Source: Rhodobacterales bacterium (GTDB lineage Bacteria > Pseudomonadota > Alphaproteobacteria > Rhodobacterales > Rhodobacteraceae). From it: a stretch of 64,000 nt of DNA. The translations under genes were made by a program, and so were the position numbers. The stretch lies in NCBI GenBank assembly GCA_002747035.1, contig PDRZ01000017.1, positions 1 to 64,000 of the forward strand. Direction: 5' to 3'. This document shows positions 5,934 through 60,694 of the stretch, piece after piece. The notes under the pieces were generated by a model, which saw only the letters and a program-made list of their open reading frames with translations, was not told where the DNA came from and ran no database searches. Numbering within the stretch: position 1 is the first letter of the stretch; the number at the start of each line of letters is the position of its first letter.

Positions 5934-7175
5934 ATGAATTTTATTAAGAAACTGCTGCTGGGCGCAGCCGTGGCCGCGCTTGGTGCGACCTCGGCAATTG
6001 CCGAGAACGTAAAGATCGCTTTTATTGACCCGCTTTCGGGTCCTTTTGCGGCGACGGGTGCAGAAGGGCTGGCATTGTACAAATTTGCTGCCGAAGAACT
6101 TGTGAACAAGAAGGGTGGCGTACTGGGCGGTCAGAAACTCGAAGTGGTCGGCTTTGACAACAAGATCAGCCCCAAGGAATCATTGATCCAGCTTCAGGTC
6201 GCGATTGATCAGGGGATTCGCTATGTGGCTCAGGGCAACAGTTCAGGCGTGGCCAATGCGTTGACCGATGCCATCAAGAAACACAACAAGCGTAACCCCG
6301 AGGACCGGGTTCTTTTCCTGAACTATTCTGCGGTTGACCCGGTGTTGACCAACGACAAGTGTAATTTCTGGCATTTCCGTTTCGATGCCAACGCGGATAT
6401 CAAGATGGACGCGATGACCGATGTCATCGCCAGCGATGAGAGCATCAAGAAGGTCTATATCATCGGTCAGGACTATTCGTTTGGCAAAGCCGTGGCTGCG
6501 GCAGCGGTGCGTTTCCTTGGCGAAAAGCGCCCCGATATCGAAATCGTGGGGAACGAGTTGCACCCGATCGGCAAGGTCAAGGACTTCACCCCCTATGCGC
6601 GCAAGATCATGGCCGCAGAAGCGGATGTGGTGATCACCGGGAACTGGGGGGCTGATATGGTCGGCCTTGGTAAGGCCGTACTGGATGCCGGGTTCGAAGA
6701 CTCGATCTATACCTATTATGCTGCTGGAACCGGGATCACCAAAACCTTTGGTGCCGATGGCGTTGGCAAGCTGAAAATGGTGGGGGAAGGCAAATTGAAC
6801 CCCCCACACTCCGATGCGGCAAGCGCCTTTGTCAAAGCGTTCAAACAGGCCAACCCGGACAAGGATATCAGCCAGCCGCGGATCGCCAACGTTGTTGAAA
6901 TGCTGGCAAAAGCCATCAATGAAGCGGGCAGCGCCACGGATGTGGTCAAGGTCGCCATGGCGCTGGAAGGCATGGAGCATGACAGCCTCTGGGGCAGCAA
7001 GATCAAGATGCGGGCCGAAGACCACCAGGCGATCCAGGACGTACATATCCTGTCCCATACCGATCAGGGCGTTGTGCACGACATGGATAACTCGGGCTTT
7101 GGCCTTGTCGCTGAAAGCACGGTTTCCATGGCGTCGGCCGACAGTGCCACATCCTGCAAGATGAGGCGCCCGTAA
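5934..7175 (+). CDS. branched-chain amino acid-type ABC transporter, substrate-binding protein
   Basis: 413 residues. An N-terminal signal peptide of about 23 residues is followed by a type I periplasmic binding fold of the Leu/Ile/Val-binding family (AFIDPLSGPFAATGAEG at the mature N terminus). The protein binds its ligand in the periplasm and delivers it to the LivHM-type permease encoded just downstream. GGAGGA precedes the ATG at 5934. The true ligand is uncertain: this family also carries amides, urea and aromatic acids, and the operon ends with a serine hydrolase. A GC-rich hairpin follows the gene and may favour its own mRNA. Confidence 0.9.
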   Translation: MNFIKKLLLGAAVAALGATSAIAENVKIAFIDPLSGPFAATGAEGLALYKFAAEELVNKKGGVLGGQKLEVVGFDNKISPKESLIQLQVAIDQGIRYVAQGNSSGVANALTDAIKKHNKRNPEDRVLFLNYSAVDPVLTNDKCNFWHFRFDANADIKMDAMTDVIASDESIKKVYIIGQDYSFGKAVAAAAVRFLGEKRPDIEIVGNELHPIGKVKDFTPYARKIMAAEADVVITGNWGADMVGLGKAVLDAGFEDSIYTYYAAGTGITKTFGADGVGKLKMVGEGKLNPPHSDAASAFVKAFKQANPDKDISQPRIANVVEMLAKAINEAGSATDVVKVAMALEGMEHDSLWGSKIKMRAEDHQAIQDVHILSHTDQGVVHDMDNSGFGLVAESTVSMASADSATSCKMRRP

Positions 7176-16046: not shown

Positions 16047-19000
16047 TTACCCCATACCGCCCAATAATGCGGCATTCCCGCCCGAGGCAGTGGTGTCCAC
16101 ACAAACGTGCCGTTCCTCCATCACCCGCGTCACGTCCGGCGCACCGGTGATCAGCGGCCGGATCGGCCCGGACCGGGCGGCCAGGGCCTGTTCCATCTTG
16201 CGGGCGTCCTCATCCGCCCCCCAGAACAGCACCCCGCCAAACCCGGTCAGATGGATCAGGGCGTCAGGCGTCAAAGCGCCCGTGGCCTCGACCGCGACCC
16301 CGCCAAGGGCGCGCACCATGCGCGCCTGCTCTTGTGCGGCCTCAACCCCCGGACCAAGGCACAACAGCGCAGCGCGGGGCAGGGTGGTCAACACGTTGGA
16401 TTCACCCGTAGGGCCGGGGAGCGAGAGCGGACTGCCTTCCTTTCCCACGGGGGCGGCGTTCAGCCGCTCCTGTGCCGCGTTCCGGGTCATGGGGCCGTTC
16501 CACGCGCCCGCCGCCCGTTCCACGGAAACGGCGGTAAACCGGTCAAGGTAATGGGGTCCACCCGCCTTTGGCCCGGTGCCCGAAAGCCCCTCTCCACCAA
16601 AGGGTTGCGAACCGACAATGGCCCCGATCTGGTTGCGGTTGACATAGATGTTGCCCGCGCGGATACGATCCGACACATGTTGCACCCGGTCATCAATCCG
16701 GGTTTGCAGGCCAAAGGTCAGCCCATAGCCGGTGGCGTTGATCGCGTTGATCACATCGTCCAGCTCGTGGGATTTGAACGTGGCCAGGTGCAGTACGGGG
16801 CCAAAAACCTCCCGCTCAAGATCGCCAATCCCGGAAACCGAAATCAGGGTGGGCGCTATGTAGGTGCCCGAATTCGGGGTGCGCAATTCATGTATTAGCT
16901 GCCCGTCACGCCGCGCCGCTTCGATATGGGCGGCGATGCCCGCGCGGGCCTCTTCGTCGATCACGGGGCCGCAATCGGTGGAAAGCTGCCAAGGATTGCC
17001 CATGGAAAGTTCGTCCATCGCGCCCTTGAGCATTTCGGTGAAGGGGGCGGCGATGTCTTCCTGAACATAAAGACAACGCAGCGCGGAACACCGTTGCCCC
17101 GCCGATTGGAAGGCGCTTTCCACGATGGCGGTGATGGCCTGTTCCGGCAGGGCGGTGGAATCCACGATCATCGCATTCAACCCGCCGGTTTCGGCCAGCA
17201 AGGGCGCGCCGGGGGCAAGGTTGTCGGCCATGGCGCGGCGGATCAGCATCGCGGTTTCGGTGGACCCGGTAAAGGCCACGCCATCGACCCGCGCATCCGA
17301 AGTCAAAGCCGCCCCCACCGCGCCATCGCCGGGCAACAATTGCAGCGCCGCGCGCGGCACACCCGCCTCATGCAACAGCGTCACGGCGCGATGGGCGATC
17401 AACGGGGTCTGTTCGGCGGGTTTGGCCAGCACAGCATTGCCTGCGGCCAGGGCGGCGGAAATCTGGCCCGTGAAGATCGCCAGCGGGAAGTTCCAGGGCG
17501 AAATGCAGGTGAACACGCCTGCCGGGGGCGTGGTGGGGGCATTGGCGGCGTAATAGCGCAGGAAATCCACCGCCTCGCGCAGTTCGGCCACGGCGTCGGG
17601 CATGGATTTCCCGGCCTCGCGCGCCAACAGGGCGAACAGTTCGCCAAAATGCGCCTCGTAAAGCTCCGCCGCCCGGGACAGGATCGCGCCGCGCCGCTCG
17701 GGCGTGTTGTCCCACGCGGTTGCCGCGGCGAGCGCGGCTTCCGTGTCGGCGGGAGAGGCGACAGCAACAGTGCCGGCCCTGTCGGCGGCATCGGCGGGGT
17801 TGACCACATCCGCGATCGCGAGAGGCCGAGCCTCTCCTGCCAACAGCGGGGCGGCGTGCCATTCCCCCGTGGCAAAGGGCGCGCGGGCCTGTTCGATGGC
17901 CGCCAATGTGGGGGCATGGGTCAGGTCGAACCCCTTGGAATTGACCCGTTCGGGCTGGAACAGCTCTGGCCCCGTGGGCAATTCGGTGCGGGGGTCTTCA
18001 ATGGCCGCAAACGGATCGCGGGCGACCTCTTCGGGGGGTACGTCTTTGTCGACGATCTGGTTCACGAAGCTGGAATTCGCGCCGTTTTCCAGCAGACGCC
18101 GCACAAGGTATGCCAGCAGGTCGCGATGCGCCCCCACCGGGGCATAGATGCGGCAGCGGGTGTTCTGACCATTCAGCACGATGTCATGCAGCGCCTCGCC
18201 CATGCCGTGCAGGCGTTGGAATTCATAGGCCCCGGCCCCAACGCCATCGCTGCGCGCCATATCAAGGATGGCGGCCACCGTATGGGCGTTATGGGTGGCG
18301 AATTGGGGATAAATCCGGTCGGTCATGCCCAGCAATTTGCGGGCATTGGCGATATAGGAGACATCGGTCGCGGCCTTCCGGGTAAAGACCGGGAAACCGT
18401 CGATGCCTTCAACCTGGGCCTGTTTGATTTCCGTGTCCCAATAGGCACCTTTGACCAGCCGCACCATGATGCGGCGATCCCTGCGCCGGGCGAGGGTGTA
18501 AAGCGCATCCAGCGCCAGCCCGGCACGTTGGCCATAGGCCTGAACCACCACGCCGAACCCGTCCCATCCCGCCAGCGCGGGTTCGGACAGCACGGTGTCG
18601 ATGACTTCGAGCGAAATGGCGAGCCGGTCGGCCTCTTCCGCGTCGATATTCAGCCCCATGCCAGCGGATTTTGCCAACAGGGCCAGCGAGCGCAGGCGCG
18701 GCACGAGTTCTTCCATCACCCGCGCATGCTGAGCCACTTCATAGCGGGGATGCAGGGCGGACAGTTTGACCGAAATGCCGGGGTTTTCGCGGATGTCACC
18801 CGACGTACAGGCCGCCGCAATTGCCGTGATCGCGCGGGAATAGGCCAGATGATAGCGTTTGGCGTCCGCATCGGTTTTCGCCGCTTCGCCCAGCATGTCA
18901 TAGGAATAGGTATAGCCCTTTTCCTCCATCCCCGCAGCGCGGTCCATGGCACCGGTGATGGTTTCGCCCAGCACGAATTGCTTGCCCATCTCCTTCATCG

Positions 19001-19481
19001 CGCGGCCCACGGCGGTGCGGATCACCGGTTCGCCCAACCGTTTCACCGCCCCGCGCAGGGTGCCGATCAGCCCCGGTTCGCGGTCTTCCAGCACCTTGCC
19101 GGTCAGCATCAGAGCCCATGTGGACGCATTCACCAGCGGCGAGGTGGACGCACCGATATGTTTGCCCCAGTTCGAGGGGGCGATCTTGTCTTCGATCAGC
19201 GCGTCGATGGTTTCGGCGTCTGGCACACGCAGCAGGGCCTCGGCCAGACACATCAGGGCAATGCCTTCATCGGTGGACAGGCCATATTCGGCCAGAAACA
19301 CCTCCATCAGCCCGGGATTGGTGCGTTGCCGGATGTCGCGCACAAGCTCTGCCGCCGAGGCCACGATCCGCGCCCGGGCGGCGTGGTCCAGCGCGGCTGT
19401 GTCGATCAGGCGCGCGAGGGTTTCGCCTTCATCTGCATAGGTGGCTGCTTCCAGAGCGGCAAGGTGGTCGGACATGGACAT
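16047..19481 (-). CDS. putA: bifunctional proline dehydrogenase / L-glutamate gamma-semialdehyde dehydrogenase
   Basis: 1144 residues. The N-terminal half is the FAD proline dehydrogenase barrel, with RLVKGAYWD near residue 345. The second half is the aldehyde dehydrogenase, with the Glu of AETGGLNAMIV near residue 770 and the catalytic Cys in FQSAGQRCSALRC near residue 798. Together they oxidise proline to glutamate at the inner membrane face. There is no ribbon-helix-helix domain at the N terminus, so it should not autoregulate as in enterobacteria. The divergent Lrp-type gene is its expected regulator. A C-terminal domain of about 130 residues follows the ALDH part. Confidence 0.96.
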   Translation of the reverse strand: MSMSDHLAALEAATYADEGETLARLIDTAALDHAARARIVASAAELVRDIRQRTNPGLMEVFLAEYGLSTDEGIALMCLAEALLRVPDAETIDALIEDKIAPSNWGKHIGASTSPLVNASTWALMLTGKVLEDREPGLIGTLRGAVKRLGEPVIRTAVGRAMKEMGKQFVLGETITGAMDRAAGMEEKGYTYSYDMLGEAAKTDADAKRYHLAYSRAITAIAAACTSGDIRENPGISVKLSALHPRYEVAQHARVMEELVPRLRSLALLAKSAGMGLNIDAEEADRLAISLEVIDTVLSEPALAGWDGFGVVVQAYGQRAGLALDALYTLARRRDRRIMVRLVKGAYWDTEIKQAQVEGIDGFPVFTRKAATDVSYIANARKLLGMTDRIYPQFATHNAHTVAAILDMARSDGVGAGAYEFQRLHGMGEALHDIVLNGQNTRCRIYAPVGAHRDLLAYLVRRLLENGANSSFVNQIVDKDVPPEEVARDPFAAIEDPRTELPTGPELFQPERVNSKGFDLTHAPTLAAIEQARAPFATGEWHAAPLLAGEARPLAIADVVNPADAADRAGTVAVASPADTEAALAAATAWDNTPERRGAILSRAAELYEAHFGELFALLAREAGKSMPDAVAELREAVDFLRYYAANAPTTPPAGVFTCISPWNFPLAIFTGQISAALAAGNAVLAKPAEQTPLIAHRAVTLLHEAGVPRAALQLLPGDGAVGAALTSDARVDGVAFTGSTETAMLIRRAMADNLAPGAPLLAETGGLNAMIVDSTALPEQAITAIVESAFQSAGQRCSALRCLYVQEDIAAPFTEMLKGAMDELSMGNPWQLSTDCGPVIDEEARAGIAAHIEAARRDGQLIHELRTPNSGTYIAPTLISVSGIGDLEREVFGPVLHLATFKSHELDDVINAINATGYGLTFGLQTRIDDRVQHVSDRIRAGNIYVNRNQIGAIVGSQPFGGEGLSGTGPKAGGPHYLDRFTAVSVERAAGAWNGPMTRNAAQERLNAAPVGKEGSPLSLPGPTGESNVLTTLPRAALLCLGPGVEAAQEQARMVRALGGVAVEATGALTPDALIHLTGFGGVLFWGADEDARKMEQALAARSGPIRPLITGAPDVTRVMEERHVCVDTTASGGNAALLGGMG

Positions 19482-19602: not shown

Positions 19603-20079
19603 ATGCCAAACACGTTTGAAACGCTGGACTCGTTCGACCGCAGGATTCTGCATGTGCTGGCCAGCGACGGGCGGATCAGCATCACCGACCTTGCCCGCCA
19701 GATCGGGTTGTCGAAATCCCCGACCCAGGCGCGGGTGAAGCGGTTGGAGGACAGCGGGGTGATCCTTGGGTATCGCGCGCTGTTTGATCCCATCCGCATG
19801 GGGTTGGATCACGTGGCCTTTGTTGAGGTTAAGCTGAACGATACGCGCGAGGCGGCGCTGGCAGCCTTCAACGCCGCCGTAGCCAGGATTCCTCAGGTGG
19901 AACAGGCCTATATGATGGCGGCGAATTTCGACTATCTGTTGAAAATCCGCACCCAAGACATGAATGATTACCGCCGGGTGCTGGCCGAAGAGATTTCGAC
20001 CCTGCCCCATGTGGCGGGCACCTCGACATTCGTGGCCATGCAGGCGGTGAAAGAGGCCGATGTTGCAGACGTTATTTAG
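19603..20079 (+). CDS. putR: Lrp/AsnC family regulator of proline catabolism
   Basis: 158 residues: an N-terminal helix-turn-helix (LDSFDRRILHVLASDGRISI through SKSPTQARVKRLEDSGVI) followed by the RAM effector domain. It is divergent from putA with a 120-bp shared promoter region, the standard arrangement for PutR, which activates putA when proline is present. A GGGAGGGG ribosome site precedes the ATG at 19603. Upstream in-frame starts would run into putA and lack homology. Confidence 0.9.
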   Translation: MPNTFETLDSFDRRILHVLASDGRISITDLARQIGLSKSPTQARVKRLEDSGVILGYRALFDPIRMGLDHVAFVEVKLNDTREAALAAFNAAVARIPQVEQAYMMAANFDYLLKIRTQDMNDYRRVLAEEISTLPHVAGTSTFVAMQAVKEADVADVI

Positions 20080-20291: not shown

Positions 20292-20585
20292 GCGGGCGTG
20301 GCGGAATGGTAGACGCATCGGACTTAAATGATTGAGTGCGCCGGTTGGAAACTCTGGCGTAGAACTGCTCAAATTCGGGGAAACCTGTGAAATGGCAATC
20401 CCGAGCCAAGCCCCGAAAGGGGAAGGTGTAGAGACTAGACGGGCAGCGCCTACGGCGAAAGCTAGGGCGAAGGGATAGTCCAGACCACAAACGCCCAGGA
20501 TACTGGGCGGCGGCGAAAGCCGTAGCTGGTAAGAAAATCCGTGGGGCGCAAGCCCGTGTGGGTTCGAGTCCCACCGCCCGTACCA
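20292..20585 (+). tRNA. tRNA-Leu(UAA), interrupted by a group I intron
   Basis: Exon 1 is 20292-20325 and exon 2 is 20534-20585, with CCA encoded. Acceptor stem GCGGGCG (20292-20298) pairs with CGCCCGT (20575-20581), including one G-U. The D stem is GCG/CGC. The anticodon UAA is split after its first U: exon 1 ends CGGACTT and exon 2 begins AAAATCCG. The long variable arm (GGGGCGCAAGCCCG) is typical of leucine tRNA. The T arm is GTGGG-TTCGAGT-CCCAC. A functional tRNA requires removal of the 208-nt insert. Confidence 0.93.
20326..20533 (+). ncRNA. group I intron in the tRNA-Leu(UAA) anticodon loop
   Basis: 208 nt, inserted between positions 34 and 35 of the tRNA, the site used by the cyanobacterial and plastid tRNA-Leu intron. 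P1 forms between ACTT at the exon end and GAGT (20334-20337), placing a U-G pair at the splice site. Core elements appear in order: P (ATTCGGGGAAACC), Q (AATCCCGAGCC), R (GAGACTAGACGG) and S (GGATAGTCC). P4 (CGGG/CCCG) and P7 (GACTA/TAGTC) pair. The last intron base is G (20533). It is small, has no homing endonuclease, and is probably self-splicing, subgroup IC3-like by similarity. Confidence 0.9.
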
Positions 20586-20875: not shown

Positions 20876-20990
20876 GAAAGCGTTCGGCCTTTACCCCGAG
20901 ACAGGGAAAAGGGCGAAGGCCGTGCGACATTTATGTGTTTCGCGTGTCCTGCCAAAAACCTGAATCACGGGTTTTTGGCAGGACGCTTTA
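20876..20990 (+). repeat. R1 intergenic repeat, copy A
   Basis: 115 bp from AAAGCGTTC to GGACGCTTTA. It holds three hairpins in order: CCTTTACCC/GGGAAAAGG, CGCGA/TCGCG-like around CATTTATGTG, and a long stem GTCCTGCCAAAAACC / GGTTTTTGGCAGGAC. It lies between the gene remnant and ald. Confidence 0.85.
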
Positions 20991-21005
20991 GGACAGCCGG
21001 GTCTG

Positions 21006-25854: not shown

Positions 25855-25958
25855 CTATAAAAACCTGACTCACGGGGTGTTGGCAGGACGTGCGAAACAC
25901 ATAAATGTCGCGCTGCCTTCGCCCTTTTCCCTGTCTCGGGTGAAAGGTTGAAGGCTTT
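25855..25958 (-). repeat. R1 intergenic repeat, copy B (reverse, one end degenerate)
   Basis: Read on the minus strand it begins AAAGCCTTC, keeps the central CATTTATGTG and the GTCCTGCCA arm, and breaks off after GAGTCAGGTTTTT, where other copies continue GGCAGGACGCTTTA. Its left end lies against the dimethylglycine dehydrogenase-like fragment. Confidence 0.75.
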
Positions 25959-25959
25959 A

Positions 25960-26270
25960 AAGCTTGACCGGGATAGGCCCATCTGTTCGGCCATGGCGGT
26001 GATCTTCCCCAAGAACGCCTCGTCCCAGTCGATCCAGCGGTCCATGCCGGTCATGCCCGCTGTGTGCCCTTGGGTGAATTCTGCCGACCGGATGCCGAAA
26101 CTCTTTTCAAACCGTGTCGACAGCATGGCGTTGAACCCAACCTCTTTGGGGGCGCTGGCCTTTCCGGCCTCAAACAACTGGCGGCCTTGGGTGATGTGAT
26201 CGGCATTCAGCGCGTGGATGCCCCCGCAATGTGCAGGGCTTTGATCCCGCACCCAAAGGCTCCCGCCCAT
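25960..26270 (-). pseudogene. fragment of a dimethylglycine/sarcosine dehydrogenase-like protein (GcvT domain)
   Basis: About 100 codons. The stretch EVGFNAMLSTRFEKSFGIRS, then AEFTQGHTAGMTGMDRWIDW, then FLGK, follows the pattern of the folate-binding GcvT-type domain of dimethylglycine or sarcosine dehydrogenases. There is no FAD domain upstream, and the C terminus is replaced by R1 sequence, which adds about 30 meaningless codons. The first 40 residues fit the family poorly. The full enzyme would demethylate methylated glycines and pass the methyl group to THF. Confidence 0.5.
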
Positions 26271-40908: not shown

Positions 40909-41093
40909 GTCAGCGTTCCTTTGTTGTGGTGCGTGCGGTAGGTTGCGATGTAGCGGGTTCCGCGCGGCCTTGCAACGCAGCTTTGGCTCAAGCCGGGCCA
41001 ATGGCGTGAGTTTCCTGCGGGTTCCGTGGGTTTTTCGGGTGGTCCGGTCCGGCGGGCTCCTCCCCGCCGGGGGTGCTTTAGCTGCGTTGGTTT

Positions 41094-41206
41094 AAACCGT
41101 TCGCGCTTTAACCTGAGACCGGGAAAAGGGCGAAGGCAGCGCGACATTTATGTGTTTCGCGTGTCCTGCCAAAAACCCGTGAGTCAGGTTTTTGGCAGGA
41201 CGCTTT
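41094..41206 (+). repeat. R1 intergenic repeat, copy C
   Basis: 113 bp, from AAACCGTTC to GGACGCTTT, with all three hairpins present. Its right arm forms the last codons and stop of the minus-strand lipoprotein gene. Confidence 0.85.
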
Positions 41207-48040: not shown

Positions 48041-48155
48041 TAAAGCGTTCGACCTTTACCCCGAGACAGGGAAAAGGGCGAAGGCCGCGCGACATTTATG
48101 TGTTTCGCGCGTCCTGCCAAAATCCTGTGAGTCAGGTTTTTGGCAGGATACTTTA
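48041..48155 (+). repeat. R1 intergenic repeat, copy D
   Basis: A full 115-bp copy, from TAAAGCGTTCGACC to GGCAGGATACTTTA, with all three hairpins. It lies 80 bp upstream of the soxB remnant. Confidence 0.88.
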
Positions 48156-48235
48156 GGGGGCGGGGATGCGATTTTCGGGTTGGCGGGTGATCAAGGAAAG
48201 TTTGACCGGCAACAGGGGGTGTACATCTTATTGGC

Positions 48236-55816: not shown

Positions 55817-56911
55817 GTGAACCTGTCTGATCGCCGGTATATGGCGCTTGCCCTGTCTTTGGGGCGGCGCGGGTTGGGAAACACCTGGCCCAACCCTGCG
55901 GTGGGCTGTGTGATTGTGCGCGACGGGCGGATTGTTGGCCGGGGGTGGACTGCGCCCGGGGGACGTCCCCATGCTGAACCTCAGGCCTTGGCGCAGGCCG
56001 GAGAGGCCGCGAAGGGGGCAACCGCGTATGTCACGCTGGAACCCTGCTCGCATCACGGCAAAACCCGGCCCTGTGCCCAGGCGTTGATTGATGCCGGGAT
56101 TGCCCGGGTGGTCGCGCCAGTGGCCGATAATGATGCCCGCGTGTCCGGTCGTGGTTTCGACATGTTGCGCGCGGCGGGGATCGAGGTGGAAACTGGCGTG
56201 ATGCGGGCCGAGGCGGAATCGGACCATGCGGGGTTTATACTTAAAACCGACCTGGGCCGCCCGTTCGTGACCCTGAAGCTGGCCAACAGCTTTGATGGAC
56301 GGATAGCGACCGCGACGGGCGAAAGCCAGTGGATTACCGGACCACAGGCGCGGCGCGCCGTGCATGCCATGCGTGCGTCCCACGATGCGGTGGTTGTTGG
56401 CGGTGGAACGGCGCGGGTTGATGACCCAACGCTGACGGTGCGGGATATGGGCGTGTCGCGTCAACCCGTCCGGGTTGTGGTGTCACGCCGTCTGGACCTG
56501 CCTAAAATGGGCAAGCTTGCACGGTCTGCGCGCGACGTGCCACTGTGGCTGGCCCATGGGCCGGACCCTGATCCGATGTTGAAAGCGGCCTGGGACAGTA
56601 TCGGCGCGACCCTGCTGCCCTGCGGCCTTTCCGGTCAACAGTTGGACATGGTGTCCGTGCTGCAGGAACTGGGCCGTGCCGGGCTGACCCGGGTCTTCTG
56701 TGAAGGCGGTGCCGCATTGGCCGCATCGCTTCTGGCTGCTGACCTTGTCGATGAACTCGTGGGATTCACCGCAGGCGTTTCGATCGGGGCAGAGGGGCTT
56801 CCGGCCATCGGCGCACTTGGTATTGAAACGCTGGCCGAAGCGCCGCGGTTCACGTTGATCGAAAGCCGTCAGATCGGAAACGATATTCTGCATCGCTGGA
56901 GACGCGCCTAA
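55817..56911 (+). CDS. ribD: bifunctional riboflavin biosynthesis deaminase/reductase
   Basis: 364 residues from a GTG start. The deaminase domain has the zinc motif GRPHAEPQAL and PCSHHGKTRPC, near residues 50 and 77. The reductase domain begins around FVTLKLANSFDGRIA and contains VVVGGGTARVDDP. The enzyme carries out the second and third steps of riboflavin synthesis. It lies 13 bp after nrdR. The TAA stop (56909-56911) is the first triplet of an R1 repeat, so the true C terminus is marginally uncertain. Confidence 0.95.
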   Translation: MNLSDRRYMALALSLGRRGLGNTWPNPAVGCVIVRDGRIVGRGWTAPGGRPHAEPQALAQAGEAAKGATAYVTLEPCSHHGKTRPCAQALIDAGIARVVAPVADNDARVSGRGFDMLRAAGIEVETGVMRAEAESDHAGFILKTDLGRPFVTLKLANSFDGRIATATGESQWITGPQARRAVHAMRASHDAVVVGGGTARVDDPTLTVRDMGVSRQPVRVVVSRRLDLPKMGKLARSARDVPLWLAHGPDPDPMLKAAWDSIGATLLPCGLSGQQLDMVSVLQELGRAGLTRVFCEGGAALAASLLAADLVDELVGFTAGVSIGAEGLPAIGALGIETLAEAPRFTLIESRQIGNDILHRWRRA

Positions 56912-57023
56912 AGCGATCGGCCTTTGACCTGAGACAGAGAAAAGGGCGAACGCAGCGCGACATTTATGTGTTTCGCGCGTCCTGCCAAAAAACCGTGATT
57001 CGGGCTTTTGGCAGGACGCTTTA
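56909..57023 (+). repeat. R1 intergenic repeat, copy E
   Basis: A full 115-bp copy, from TAAAGCGATCGGCC to GGACGCTTTA. Its first three bases are the ribD stop codon. Confidence 0.9.
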
Positions 57024-57097
57024 GTTTTGGACCTGTCGGGGCTGGTTGTTGTGAGCAAGCGACGATAGAGTTGCATCAGGCGGGTACGAGGGGCGAT

Positions 57098-59559: not shown

Positions 59560-60582
59560 ATGTTTGGAATTGATACGGTTTCCGAGGCTCTTGATTCACT
59601 GTGTCCGATGCATGTCTGGGTGAATGTGACCGGGCATATCACCCATGTCGGCCCGACCTTGCAAAAGCTGCGGCCCGACGCCCCGCTCGCCGGGCAACGG
59701 TTTCTGGAGGTGTTCGAATTGCGCCGCCCGCGCACGGTGACCTCTATGGCGGACCTTATGGCCTCCAGCGGGATCAAGCTGCACCTGCGTTTCAGGGATA
59801 CGCCCCAGACCGATTTGAAAGGCATTCTTGTCCCGCTACCTGATGATCAGGGCGCTGTTGTGAATCTGTCTTTCGGGATTTCGATTCTGGAAGGGGTGCG
59901 GGATTACCAATTGACCAGTGCCGATTTCGCGGCGACGGATCTGACGATCGAAATGTTGTACCTTGTTGAAGCGAAATCCGCTGCGATGGAAGCGTCGCGA
60001 AAGCTCAATCTGCGTCTTCAGGGGGCAATGATCGCCGCAGAAGAACGTTCATTTACGGACACATTGACGGGGCTTAAAAACCGCCGGGCAATGGATCATA
60101 TCCTGGATCAGTTGATCGAGGGGGGGAAGCCGTTTGCGTTGATGCATGTTGATCTGGATTTTTTCAAAGCGGTGAACGACACGATGGGGCACGCGGCGGG
60201 CGATCATGTGTTGGAACGCGTGGCCGAAGTGATGCTTGATGTCACCCGAAGCACGGATGTCGTGGCGCGGGTAGGTGGCGATGAGTTCGTGTTGTTGTTC
60301 GAGGGGGTGACGGACCCGGAGATCCTGCAAAATCTGGGCGCGCGTATTATCGAACGGCTTGAGGAACCGATTCCCTTCGAGGGTAAAACGTGCAGGATTT
60401 CGGCGAGTTGTGGCACGACCATTTCCACATTCTATTCCAAACCGGATAGCAAGGAGATGCTTGCCGATGCCGACCTGGCCCTTTACGCGTCAAAGCATAA
60501 GGGTCGCGCCTGTCATACTTTCTTTTCCAATGAACTTCGCACAGATAGCACCCTGCCGGGTGGGGCGATGCTCGCGTCTTAA
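59560..60582 (+). CDS. diguanylate cyclase with H-NOX-associated N-terminal domain
   Basis: 340 residues. The N-terminal 130 residues (PMHVWVNVTGHITHVGPTLQ) match the H-NOX-associated, PAS-like domain. A helix about 130-165 links to the GGDEF domain. The catalytic motif is GGDEF at 239-243, and RSTD (230-233) five residues before it fits the product-inhibition I-site. It should make c-di-GMP from GTP under control of the upstream H-NOX sensor. The TAA stop is the first triplet of an R1 repeat. Confidence 0.92.
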   Translation: MFGIDTVSEALDSLCPMHVWVNVTGHITHVGPTLQKLRPDAPLAGQRFLEVFELRRPRTVTSMADLMASSGIKLHLRFRDTPQTDLKGILVPLPDDQGAVVNLSFGISILEGVRDYQLTSADFAATDLTIEMLYLVEAKSAAMEASRKLNLRLQGAMIAAEERSFTDTLTGLKNRRAMDHILDQLIEGGKPFALMHVDLDFFKAVNDTMGHAAGDHVLERVAEVMLDVTRSTDVVARVGGDEFVLLFEGVTDPEILQNLGARIIERLEEPIPFEGKTCRISASCGTTISTFYSKPDSKEMLADADLALYASKHKGRACHTFFSNELRTDSTLPGGAMLAS

Positions 60583-60694
60583 AGCGTTCGCCCTTTAACC
60601 TGAAACAAGGAAAAGGGCGAACGCAGCGCGACATTTATGTGTTTCGCGCGTCCTGCCAAAAAACCGTGATTCAGGTTTTTCGCAGGACGTCTTA
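60580..60694 (+). repeat. R1 intergenic repeat, copy F
   Basis: A full 115-bp copy, from TAAAGCGTTCGCCC to GGACGTCTTA. Its first three bases are the diguanylate cyclase stop codon. It separates two convergent genes. Confidence 0.9.

Follow-up and report, generated by a model that had tools for sequence, protein, structure and literature searches.

Group I introns in the tRNA-Leu(UAA) genes of cyanobacteria and plastids belong to subgroup IC3, and the well-known group I introns of proteobacterial tRNA genes are located in tRNA-Arg(CCU) and tRNA-Ile(CAU). A group I intron in the tRNA-Leu(UAA) gene of a deep-subsurface gammaproteobacterium was reportedly described by Vepritskiy in 2002. To our knowledge, there is no agreed explanation for the persistence and spread, in bacterial tRNA genes, of small group I introns that lack a homing gene, and we know of no report on proteobacterial tRNA introns which mentions a link to an integrase or a broken native gene. 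Genomic islands located in tRNA genes are described, in the passages of the Islander paper that concern them (PMC4383910), as restoring the target that they split.

In the window, i.e., the whole stretch of 64,000 nucleotides that was analysed, positions 20292–20585 (+ strand) contain a tRNA-Leu(UAA) gene interrupted after U34 by a group I intron of 208 nt. These coordinates, the length of the insert and its location after the first anticodon base were those given in a preliminary description made from the sequence alone, and they proved correct when ARAGORN was run with introns on and the group I rules were applied. The Rfam model Intron_gpI (RF00028; gathering score 50 bits) matches positions 20316–20509 of the + strand with 56.9 bits (E value 7e-13). 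The match extends from position 1 to 253 of the 253 in the model and includes the conserved core P3–P8 with the guanosine site in P7, which bears out the claim of a complete group I core; at this E value a chance resemblance was ruled out. At an E value of 0.001 or less, the window intron is the single match to RF00028 in the whole assembly. With introns off, ARAGORN found no tRNA in the window; with introns on it found one (20292–20585), shifted the insertion by two bases, and labelled the product Phe(aaa). For annotation, this means that such a gene is missed in the first mode and misnamed in the second. In group I introns, the last base is G and the U at the 5' splice site (here U34) pairs with a G, and the exon-intron boundaries were placed by these rules and not by ARAGORN.

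The 5' exon (20292–20325, + strand) ends with ...CGGACUU through U34, the intron occupies 20326–20533 between U34 and A35, and the 3' exon (20534–20585), which begins with AAAAUCCG..., has an encoded CCA. As read from the sequence, the internal guide GAGU (20334–20337) is the P1 partner of ACUU in the 5' exon, with a U-G pair at the splice site, and the last base of the intron is the G at 20533, both as the preliminary description had stated. The conserved core includes TCAAATTCGGGGAA in the P3/P4 region (20369–20382; Rfam core alignment), a word also present in many relatives, and GTGTAGAGACTAGACGG (20426–20442; Rfam alignment), the 5' side of P7, whose partner AUAGUCC is at 20475–20481. After joining of the exons, the anticodon loop is CUUAAAA with the anticodon UAA, and the acceptor stem has 7 of 7 pairs between the 5' and the 3' exon. 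The fold of the precursor beats 200 of 200 dinucleotide shuffles (z -3.75). Based on its tRNA location and size, we take the intron to be a member of subgroup IC3. The transcript would have to lose it by guanosine-started self-splicing.

The source assembly (2.52 Mb, 47 contigs, 77.7% complete) has 27 uninterrupted tRNA matches, and neither among these nor by a tolerant pattern was an intronless tRNA-Leu(UAA) gene found. A second, intronless copy was therefore rejected, though within an assembly of that completeness, and the earlier suggestion that the interrupted gene is the only one of its kind fits this result without being proved by it. Group I intron matches were present in 19 of 295 genomes sampled over the family Rhodobacteraceae. 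By their exons, at least 14 of these genomes (G000 and 13 others; a lower bound, the best 6 candidates per genome having been scored) carry the intron in tRNA-Leu(UAA), two in tRNA-Arg(CCU), two in tRNA-Thr(GGU), and one in tRNA-Arg(UCU); G108, a genome with a Leu intron, has a second group I intron in tRNA-Ile(UAU). A pattern search revealed intronless tRNA-Leu(UAA) genes in 127 of the 295 genomes. Among the 14 genomes with a Leu intron, G137 alone was found to have an intronless gene too, one further exact match, in G029, being no tRNA. Both sets together account for 140 of the 295, and the other 155 would represent exon variants or missed introns. The intron had been presented as exceptional in an alphaproteobacterium; given its occurrence in at least 14 family genomes, it is not.

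Over 84,980 species genomes, a pattern of exons plus intron matched at least 118 stretches. Among the matches listed are those of cyanobacteria, alpha- and gammaproteobacteria, Bacteroidota, and one Desulfobacterales, which gives the taxa present and not their frequencies. Both exons and the intron were extracted from 115 of the 118, and the three that were missed (L131, L182, and L183) lie at contig ends. Six gammaproteobacterial tRNA-Leu(UAA) introns (L100, L101, L108, L135, L144, and L185) are 688–698 nt long and carry a similar ORF of about 155 aa, of which the one scanned, in L100, matches an HNH endonuclease domain. By exon reading, two Rhodobacteraceae genomes have group I introns after the third anticodon base of tRNA-Thr(GGU) (L042, 1457–1745, and L043, 1412–1692, both on the - strand), a site of which we know no record in print. 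Exon reading also places group I introns in tRNA-Ile(UAU) (L034, 402–723) and in tRNA-Arg(UCU) (L037, 1477–1797).

A quick tree of 138 introns, in which 63 of the 133 inner branches are open, separates 27 cyanobacterial rows and one gammaproteobacterial MAG contig from all other introns (SH-aLRT 100). This contig (L166, 'Tatlockia'), which has a gene of the cyanobacterial type, is probably misbinned. The window intron is located among alphaproteobacterial introns, the nearest being L038 (92% identity), L030, and L035, all from the same family, in a part of the tree that has an SH-aLRT of 87, is drawn open and is weakly supported. The insertion point is indeed the one used in cyanobacterial tRNA-Leu(UAA), as had been pointed out; the close link with the cyanobacterial introns was not upheld by the tree, and a cyanobacterial origin of the window intron was rejected on the same basis. 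Introns of Rhodobacteraceae are interspersed with those of the remaining alphaproteobacteria (15 changes vs a shuffled mean of 20.7). Those that the family has in Arg(CCU), Thr(GGU), and Arg(UCU) fall within the alphaproteobacterial Leu introns, and its Ile(UAU) intron groups with gammaproteobacterial introns. From this placement of the introns of other tRNAs, it seems that introns have moved from one tRNA to another inside the proteobacteria. Bacteroidota Leu(UAA) introns (L136, L153, L093, L197, L090, and L094) are found near the base of the non-cyanobacterial part. The row of L074 arose from a faulty extraction (end branch 10), and L074, L063, and duplicate loci were left out of the counts of broken halves, exon identities and exon traits given below. 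Identical 5' exons with introns occur in Rhodovulum, Novosphingobium, Enterovirga, Mesorhizobium, and enterobacterial plasmids, and the horizontal transfer of such genes that had been considered in the preliminary description is supported by the relatives. In toto, that description stands as regards the intron, its site, and transfer, and falls as regards exceptional status and the cyanobacterial tie.

Directly upstream of the window tRNA gene, at a distance of 215 bp, is a gene for a presumed AsnC/Lrp-type regulator (19603–20079, + strand), which tblastn of the neighbours showed to be conserved beside the tRNA gene, with or without intron, in several relatives. The second conserved neighbour (16047–19481, - strand; ORF, tblastn) is presumably PutA-like; both names are based on sequence resemblance. 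In tblastn searches, the AsnC neighbour was found beside eight intronless tRNA-Leu(UAA) genes of the family (L058, L064, L066, L070, L072, L073, L078, and L081) and beside seven further intron-bearing ones (L035, L040, L084, L106, L111, L125, and L154), and in view of this common neighbour the window gene is at a native place. Six copies of an interspersed repeat of about 115 bp (20877–20992, 25859–25961 on the - strand, 41093–41206, 48041–48156, 56909–57024, and 60579–60689) are also present in the window; they are pairwise 84–92% identical, have the inverted-repeat end TGTCCTGCCAAAAACC...GGTTTTTGGCAGGAC, and one of them begins about 290 bp past the tRNA.

The exons of the window gene share 96.4–97.6% identity with those of intron-bearing genes of the family (L030, L125, L038, and L035), and 90.4% and 89.5% with those of intron-bearing genes of other orders, from Sphingomonas and a Bradyrhizobium element, respectively. 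Identity to the intronless genes of the AsnC locus is 84.3% or less, and to L071, an intronless gene at another locus, 90.4%. Base 11 is C in the window gene, in 18 of the 22 intron-bearing genes of the family, and in 2 of its 28 intronless ones. A 5' exon of 34 nt, as in the window, is found in 25/28 intronless and 9/22 intron-bearing family genes and in 9/81 intron-bearing genes elsewhere (cyanobacteria apart), while the G1-U72 pair of the window gene is found in 12/28, 3/22, and 5/81 of these, respectively. The exons thus appear to be mosaic, combining traits of intron-bearing genes with those of native ones, a composition which fits a transfer followed by recombination and also fits the entry of the intron alone. 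Because of this mosaic, the descent of the window gene from a mobile element, as proposed below, is uncertain. Within the 64 kb of the window, no second tRNA-Leu(UAA) half was found, and the integrase-family profile had no match at E values up to 10.

In relatives, genes of this kind appear to ride on elements that break the native tRNA-Leu(UAA), which the preliminary description could not have seen. A broken 5' half of tRNA-Leu(UAA) that ends in the anticodon loop is present at 17 of 131 intron loci (L045, L083, L091, L095, L098, L111, L121, L122, L128, L133, L151, L152, L158, L167, L173, L175, and L198; L121 and L095 were counted although decayed), in every case upstream and on the same strand. 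By label, all 17 loci are alphaproteobacterial, which corresponds to 17/65 of the alphaproteobacterial intron loci and 0/66 of the others. At the 131 loci, no broken half was found in the 2.6 kb downstream on the same strand or upstream on the other strand; on the other strand downstream, the single match belonged to a second, intron-bearing gene of L088. Intact tRNAs for other leucine codons, recognised by their pairing anticodon stems, were excluded: three in the position of the broken halves (L029, L089, and L160), six that are upstream but on the opposite strand, and one downstream. Near intronless tRNA-Leu(UAA) genes, no broken half was found at any of 28 loci in flanks of up to 1.5 kb. 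At loci with flanks of 1.5 kb or less, whether intron-bearing or not, a half located just beyond would escape.

At the broken halves, ARAGORN found no tRNA-Leu, and the sequence past CTTAAAA contains no pairing 3' half, i.e., the target is not restored. The left ends of L317 and L319 contain decayed sequence resembling a 3' half, which may hint that elements of this type formerly reconstituted the gene as other islands do. At the AsnC locus of L111, a second tRNA-Leu(UAA) 5' half is located about 220 bp ahead of the complete intron-bearing gene. Broken halves are likewise present in L173 and L128, whose introns belong to the same part of the tree as that of the window; in L173 there is an integrase as well. 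A second kind of left end is seen in L091, L133, and L175, where the broken 5' half is followed by about 190–210 bp with no integrase and then by the intron-bearing gene. In L122, the gap of 2.2 kb contains two other ORFs, and the integrase profile has no match there.

In seven loci (L083, L098, L151, L152, L158, L167, and L198), a single ORF fills the 1.4–1.5 kb between the broken half and the intron-bearing gene; L152 comes from Sphingobium cupriresistens and L098 from Bradyrhizobium lablabi. Its products are 410–450 aa from stop to stop, encoded on the same strand, and resemble tyrosine recombinases; the two scanned against the Pfam domain Phage_integrase (PF00589) scored 25.2 and 21.2 bits, below the cut-off of 27.1, and the annotation of some relatives on plasmids reads site-specific or tyrosine-type integrase. 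A profile built from the seven ORFs matches an ORF in the corresponding position of L173, L177, L179 (truncated at the start of the locus), and L050 (in pieces). Wherever a match adjoins an intron gene, it is the ORF that immediately precedes this gene in the same orientation. A weak match to the profile (22 bits) near a tRNA-Ser was also recorded in the window's own genome (L028).

In a reverse test, the integrase was sought regardless of introns. Matches came from 41 different genomes, with 14/385 genomes of the class, 4/40, 18/249, 1/5, and, within the window's order, 7/196 (six of them distant) in the individual samples. Eight of the integrase loci, in eight genomes, are at tRNA-Leu(UAA) (L229, L230, L235, L243, L245, L277, L283, and L286), and in 8/8 the tRNA-Leu(UAA) adjoining the integrase is intron-bearing. 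It begins 27–70 bp downstream of the integrase in seven of them; in L235, the open frame of the integrase and the start of the tRNA gene share 45 bases, and the contig stops inside the intron. A broken 5' half lies upstream in 8/8, those of L243, L245, and L277 having been recognised by eye in variant or decayed letters, and in the eight genomes the tolerant-pattern matches include no complete intronless tRNA-Leu(UAA). The remaining relatives of the integrase mostly follow intact tRNA genes (Met, Arg, Phe, Gln, Trp), or no tRNA was called beside them. In L237, the gene downstream is an intronless Leu(UAG), and in L278 a decayed intron-bearing gene is farther off from the integrase. In an integrase tree of 52 rows, 17 of which have the Leu intron, this state takes 4 changes to explain, and starred branches require no fewer than 2 of them. 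The Leu(UAA)-sited integrases are therefore related, and the 8/8 loci are not fully independent.

Both ends of an element could be matched in three genomes. The broken 5' half and a 3' half lie about 20.4 kb apart in G393, about 27.5 kb apart in G303, and on two contigs in G617, and in each case the halves give 7/7 pairs in the acceptor stem and 5/5 in the anticodon stem. The word common to the element ends is CTTAAAA, the seven bases of the anticodon loop. The cargo of the G393 and G303 elements includes a relaxase (PF03432), NikA/MobC, and a coupling protein (PF02534). To these, the G393 element adds a type I restriction system and an AbiEii-type toxin, and the G303 element SIR2, caspase, and HipA domains. 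Based on the relaxase and the coupling protein, these two elements, each with both ends on one contig, are predicted to be integrative mobilizable elements.

Among plasmid records that match the window gene, 1263 of 1282 cover at least 80% of it, mostly from Enterobacteriaceae. Two enterobacterial plasmids and one Acinetobacter plasmid (L048, L049, and L052, at about 6001–6300) carry an intron-bearing tRNA-Leu(UAA) of the alphaproteobacterial type. In all three plasmid stretches examined, aac(3)-II genes are 0.6–2.1 kb downstream of the intron gene. The plasmid stretches contain GGACTTAAAA about 150–170 bp upstream of the intron gene and then a left end resembling those of Enterovirga and Bradyrhizobiaceae (42 bp, 85.7%), and the plasmid introns nest beside that of Enterovirga (SH-aLRT 83). 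A phage origin of the window gene was rejected, the best phage record covering 66% of the query at 76.2% identity and 0 of 47 covering 80%; viral contigs scanned with one integrase of the family yielded no relative.

We propose that the window gene stems from an imported intron-bearing tRNA-Leu(UAA), and that in relatives mobilizable elements carry such genes as spares which the intron shields from the integrase; we consider this explanation, by a small degree, probable. The tyrosine recombinase of the element would cross over in the 7-base anticodon loop CTTAAAA of the native tRNA-Leu(UAA) and thereby break the native gene, with no fragment of the element restoring it, and the intron-bearing spare would take over its function. 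A spare with an uninterrupted loop would itself be a target of the integrase. The intron divides CTTAAAA into CTT and AAAA in the DNA of the spare, i.e., it splits the same seven bases, and the spare would therefore be no target, while splicing would return a normal loop in the RNA. At the AsnC-PutA locus, an imported gene would most likely have replaced, or recombined with, the native one, and the window is perhaps the end state after decay of an element. In its general form, our proposal is that elements break the host tRNA-Leu(UAA) and substitute a spare with an intron in the attachment site, the ribozyme acting as a removable mask, that the cell becomes dependent on them, and that their decay leaves an intron-bearing tRNA; here we see the arguments for and against as evenly balanced.

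The intron, the broken halves, the matched element ends and the gene order from which this explanation starts are read from the sequences, and it is supported because broken halves occur at 17 of 131 intron loci and upstream only, because the reverse test gave 8/8, and because the element ends match and enclose mobilization genes. Since the window exons are nearer to intron-bearing genes overall and have C at base 11, they support a lineage through an intron-bearing gene, as do the broken halves of L111 at the AsnC locus and of L173 and L128. Counting against it are the lack of a broken half and an integrase in the window, the mosaic exons, and the 90.4% identity to L071, points that agree either with an intron that entered by itself or with recombination involving the native gene. 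Further points against it are the share of alphaproteobacterial intron loci with a broken half (17/65), the weak support for the window's part of the intron tree, and the kinship of the integrases in the eight loci of the reverse test. According to the former alternative, the intron entered the native tRNA-Leu(UAA) by reverse splicing or homing, with no element involved, and the element-borne genes are a side branch. It agrees with the location of the window gene at the AsnC-PutA locus, 215 bp after the AsnC gene and with remnants absent, with a short 5' exon and a G1-U72 pair that are traits of intronless family genes, and with the similarity of the intronless L071 exons. An HNH endonuclease is a usual means of homing, and the similar ORF in six gammaproteobacterial Leu(UAA) introns, HNH in the one scanned, adds to these points, whereas the window intron of 208 nt is too small for an endonuclease gene. 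Moreover, overall identity and base 11 place the window exons with intron-bearing genes, those of other orders included, over the intronless genes of the AsnC locus, and L111, at the same locus, has a broken 5' half. We regard the entry of the intron alone as doubtful, though not far-fetched.

It might also be argued that the elements took their spare tRNA-Leu(UAA) from a host that chanced to have an intron, which would then mask nothing. The Leu(UAA)-sited integrases do occupy a restricted portion of their tree, the 17 rows needing 4 changes, so that the 8/8 loci are not independent, and a relative, L237, is followed by an intronless Leu(UAG) gene. However, the intron sits within the very 7-base word that is common to the element ends, the starred branches require at least 2 changes of the Leu-intron state, and an intronless Leu(UAA) spare was found in 0 of the 8 loci; a chance association of this type is therefore a tenable but rather improbable explanation. 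An old vertical inheritance, with the intron present since the ancestor of the proteobacteria, or of proteobacteria and cyanobacteria, and mostly lost thereafter, would account for the same site in cyanobacteria, proteobacteria, and Bacteroidota. It is difficult to reconcile with the patchy distribution (127/295 family genomes with intronless genes vs at least 14 with Leu introns), with identical 5' exons with introns across Rhodovulum, Novosphingobium, Enterovirga, Mesorhizobium, and enterobacterial plasmids, and with a tree that is not species-like and in which the Rhodobacteraceae introns are scattered (15 changes), and we consider it very improbable. The import of an intron-bearing gene, with the intron as the shield of element-borne spares, is thus the reading that we prefer.

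If true, the link with the integrase would give the intron a selectable job, and the decay of elements that leave the intron-bearing tRNA behind would explain the patchy occurrence of tRNA-Leu(UAA) introns in alphaproteobacteria. The link would also represent a new way for a mobile element to become indispensable: no functional tRNA except that of the element would read UUA codons, and the cell would therefore depend on the element. The idea of masking is testable, in that the seven bases at the element ends are those split by the intron. A literature search, with older and subscription literature outside its scope, returned no paper recognised as linking tRNA group I introns with integrases. 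The word intron is absent from the texts of PMC11476347, PMC9897764, and PMC12884075, as it is from the Islander text (PMC4383910).

The introns of cyanobacterial and plastid tRNA-Leu(UAA), as described in the relevant passages (PMC4033280, PMC3984707), have the tRNA, the insertion after U34, the core, and P1 in common with the window intron. Unlike them, the introns on the window's side are located on the other side of the tree, are scattered, and are linked to an integrase in some alphaproteobacteria. The known proteobacterial introns of tRNA-Arg(CCU) and tRNA-Ile(CAU) differ in site, and the Arg(CCU) introns of the family nest among the alphaproteobacterial Leu introns. With the islands treated in the passages of the Islander paper (PMC4383910), the elements proposed here share a tyrosine recombinase, a crossover in the anticodon loop, and a native gene halved at the element ends; they differ in leaving the target disrupted and bringing along a complete gene with an intron instead. 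Tycheposons (PMC10872708) similarly have a tyrosine recombinase beside a tRNA gene at the element border, but they occur in other hosts, and the passages concerned do not mention an intron. In IStrons, according to the part of PMC4227781 that deals with them, a group I intron is likewise partnered with a mobile DNA element. There, the intron splices out and makes the insertion harmless, whereas here it would protect the spare gene from the element's own integrase.
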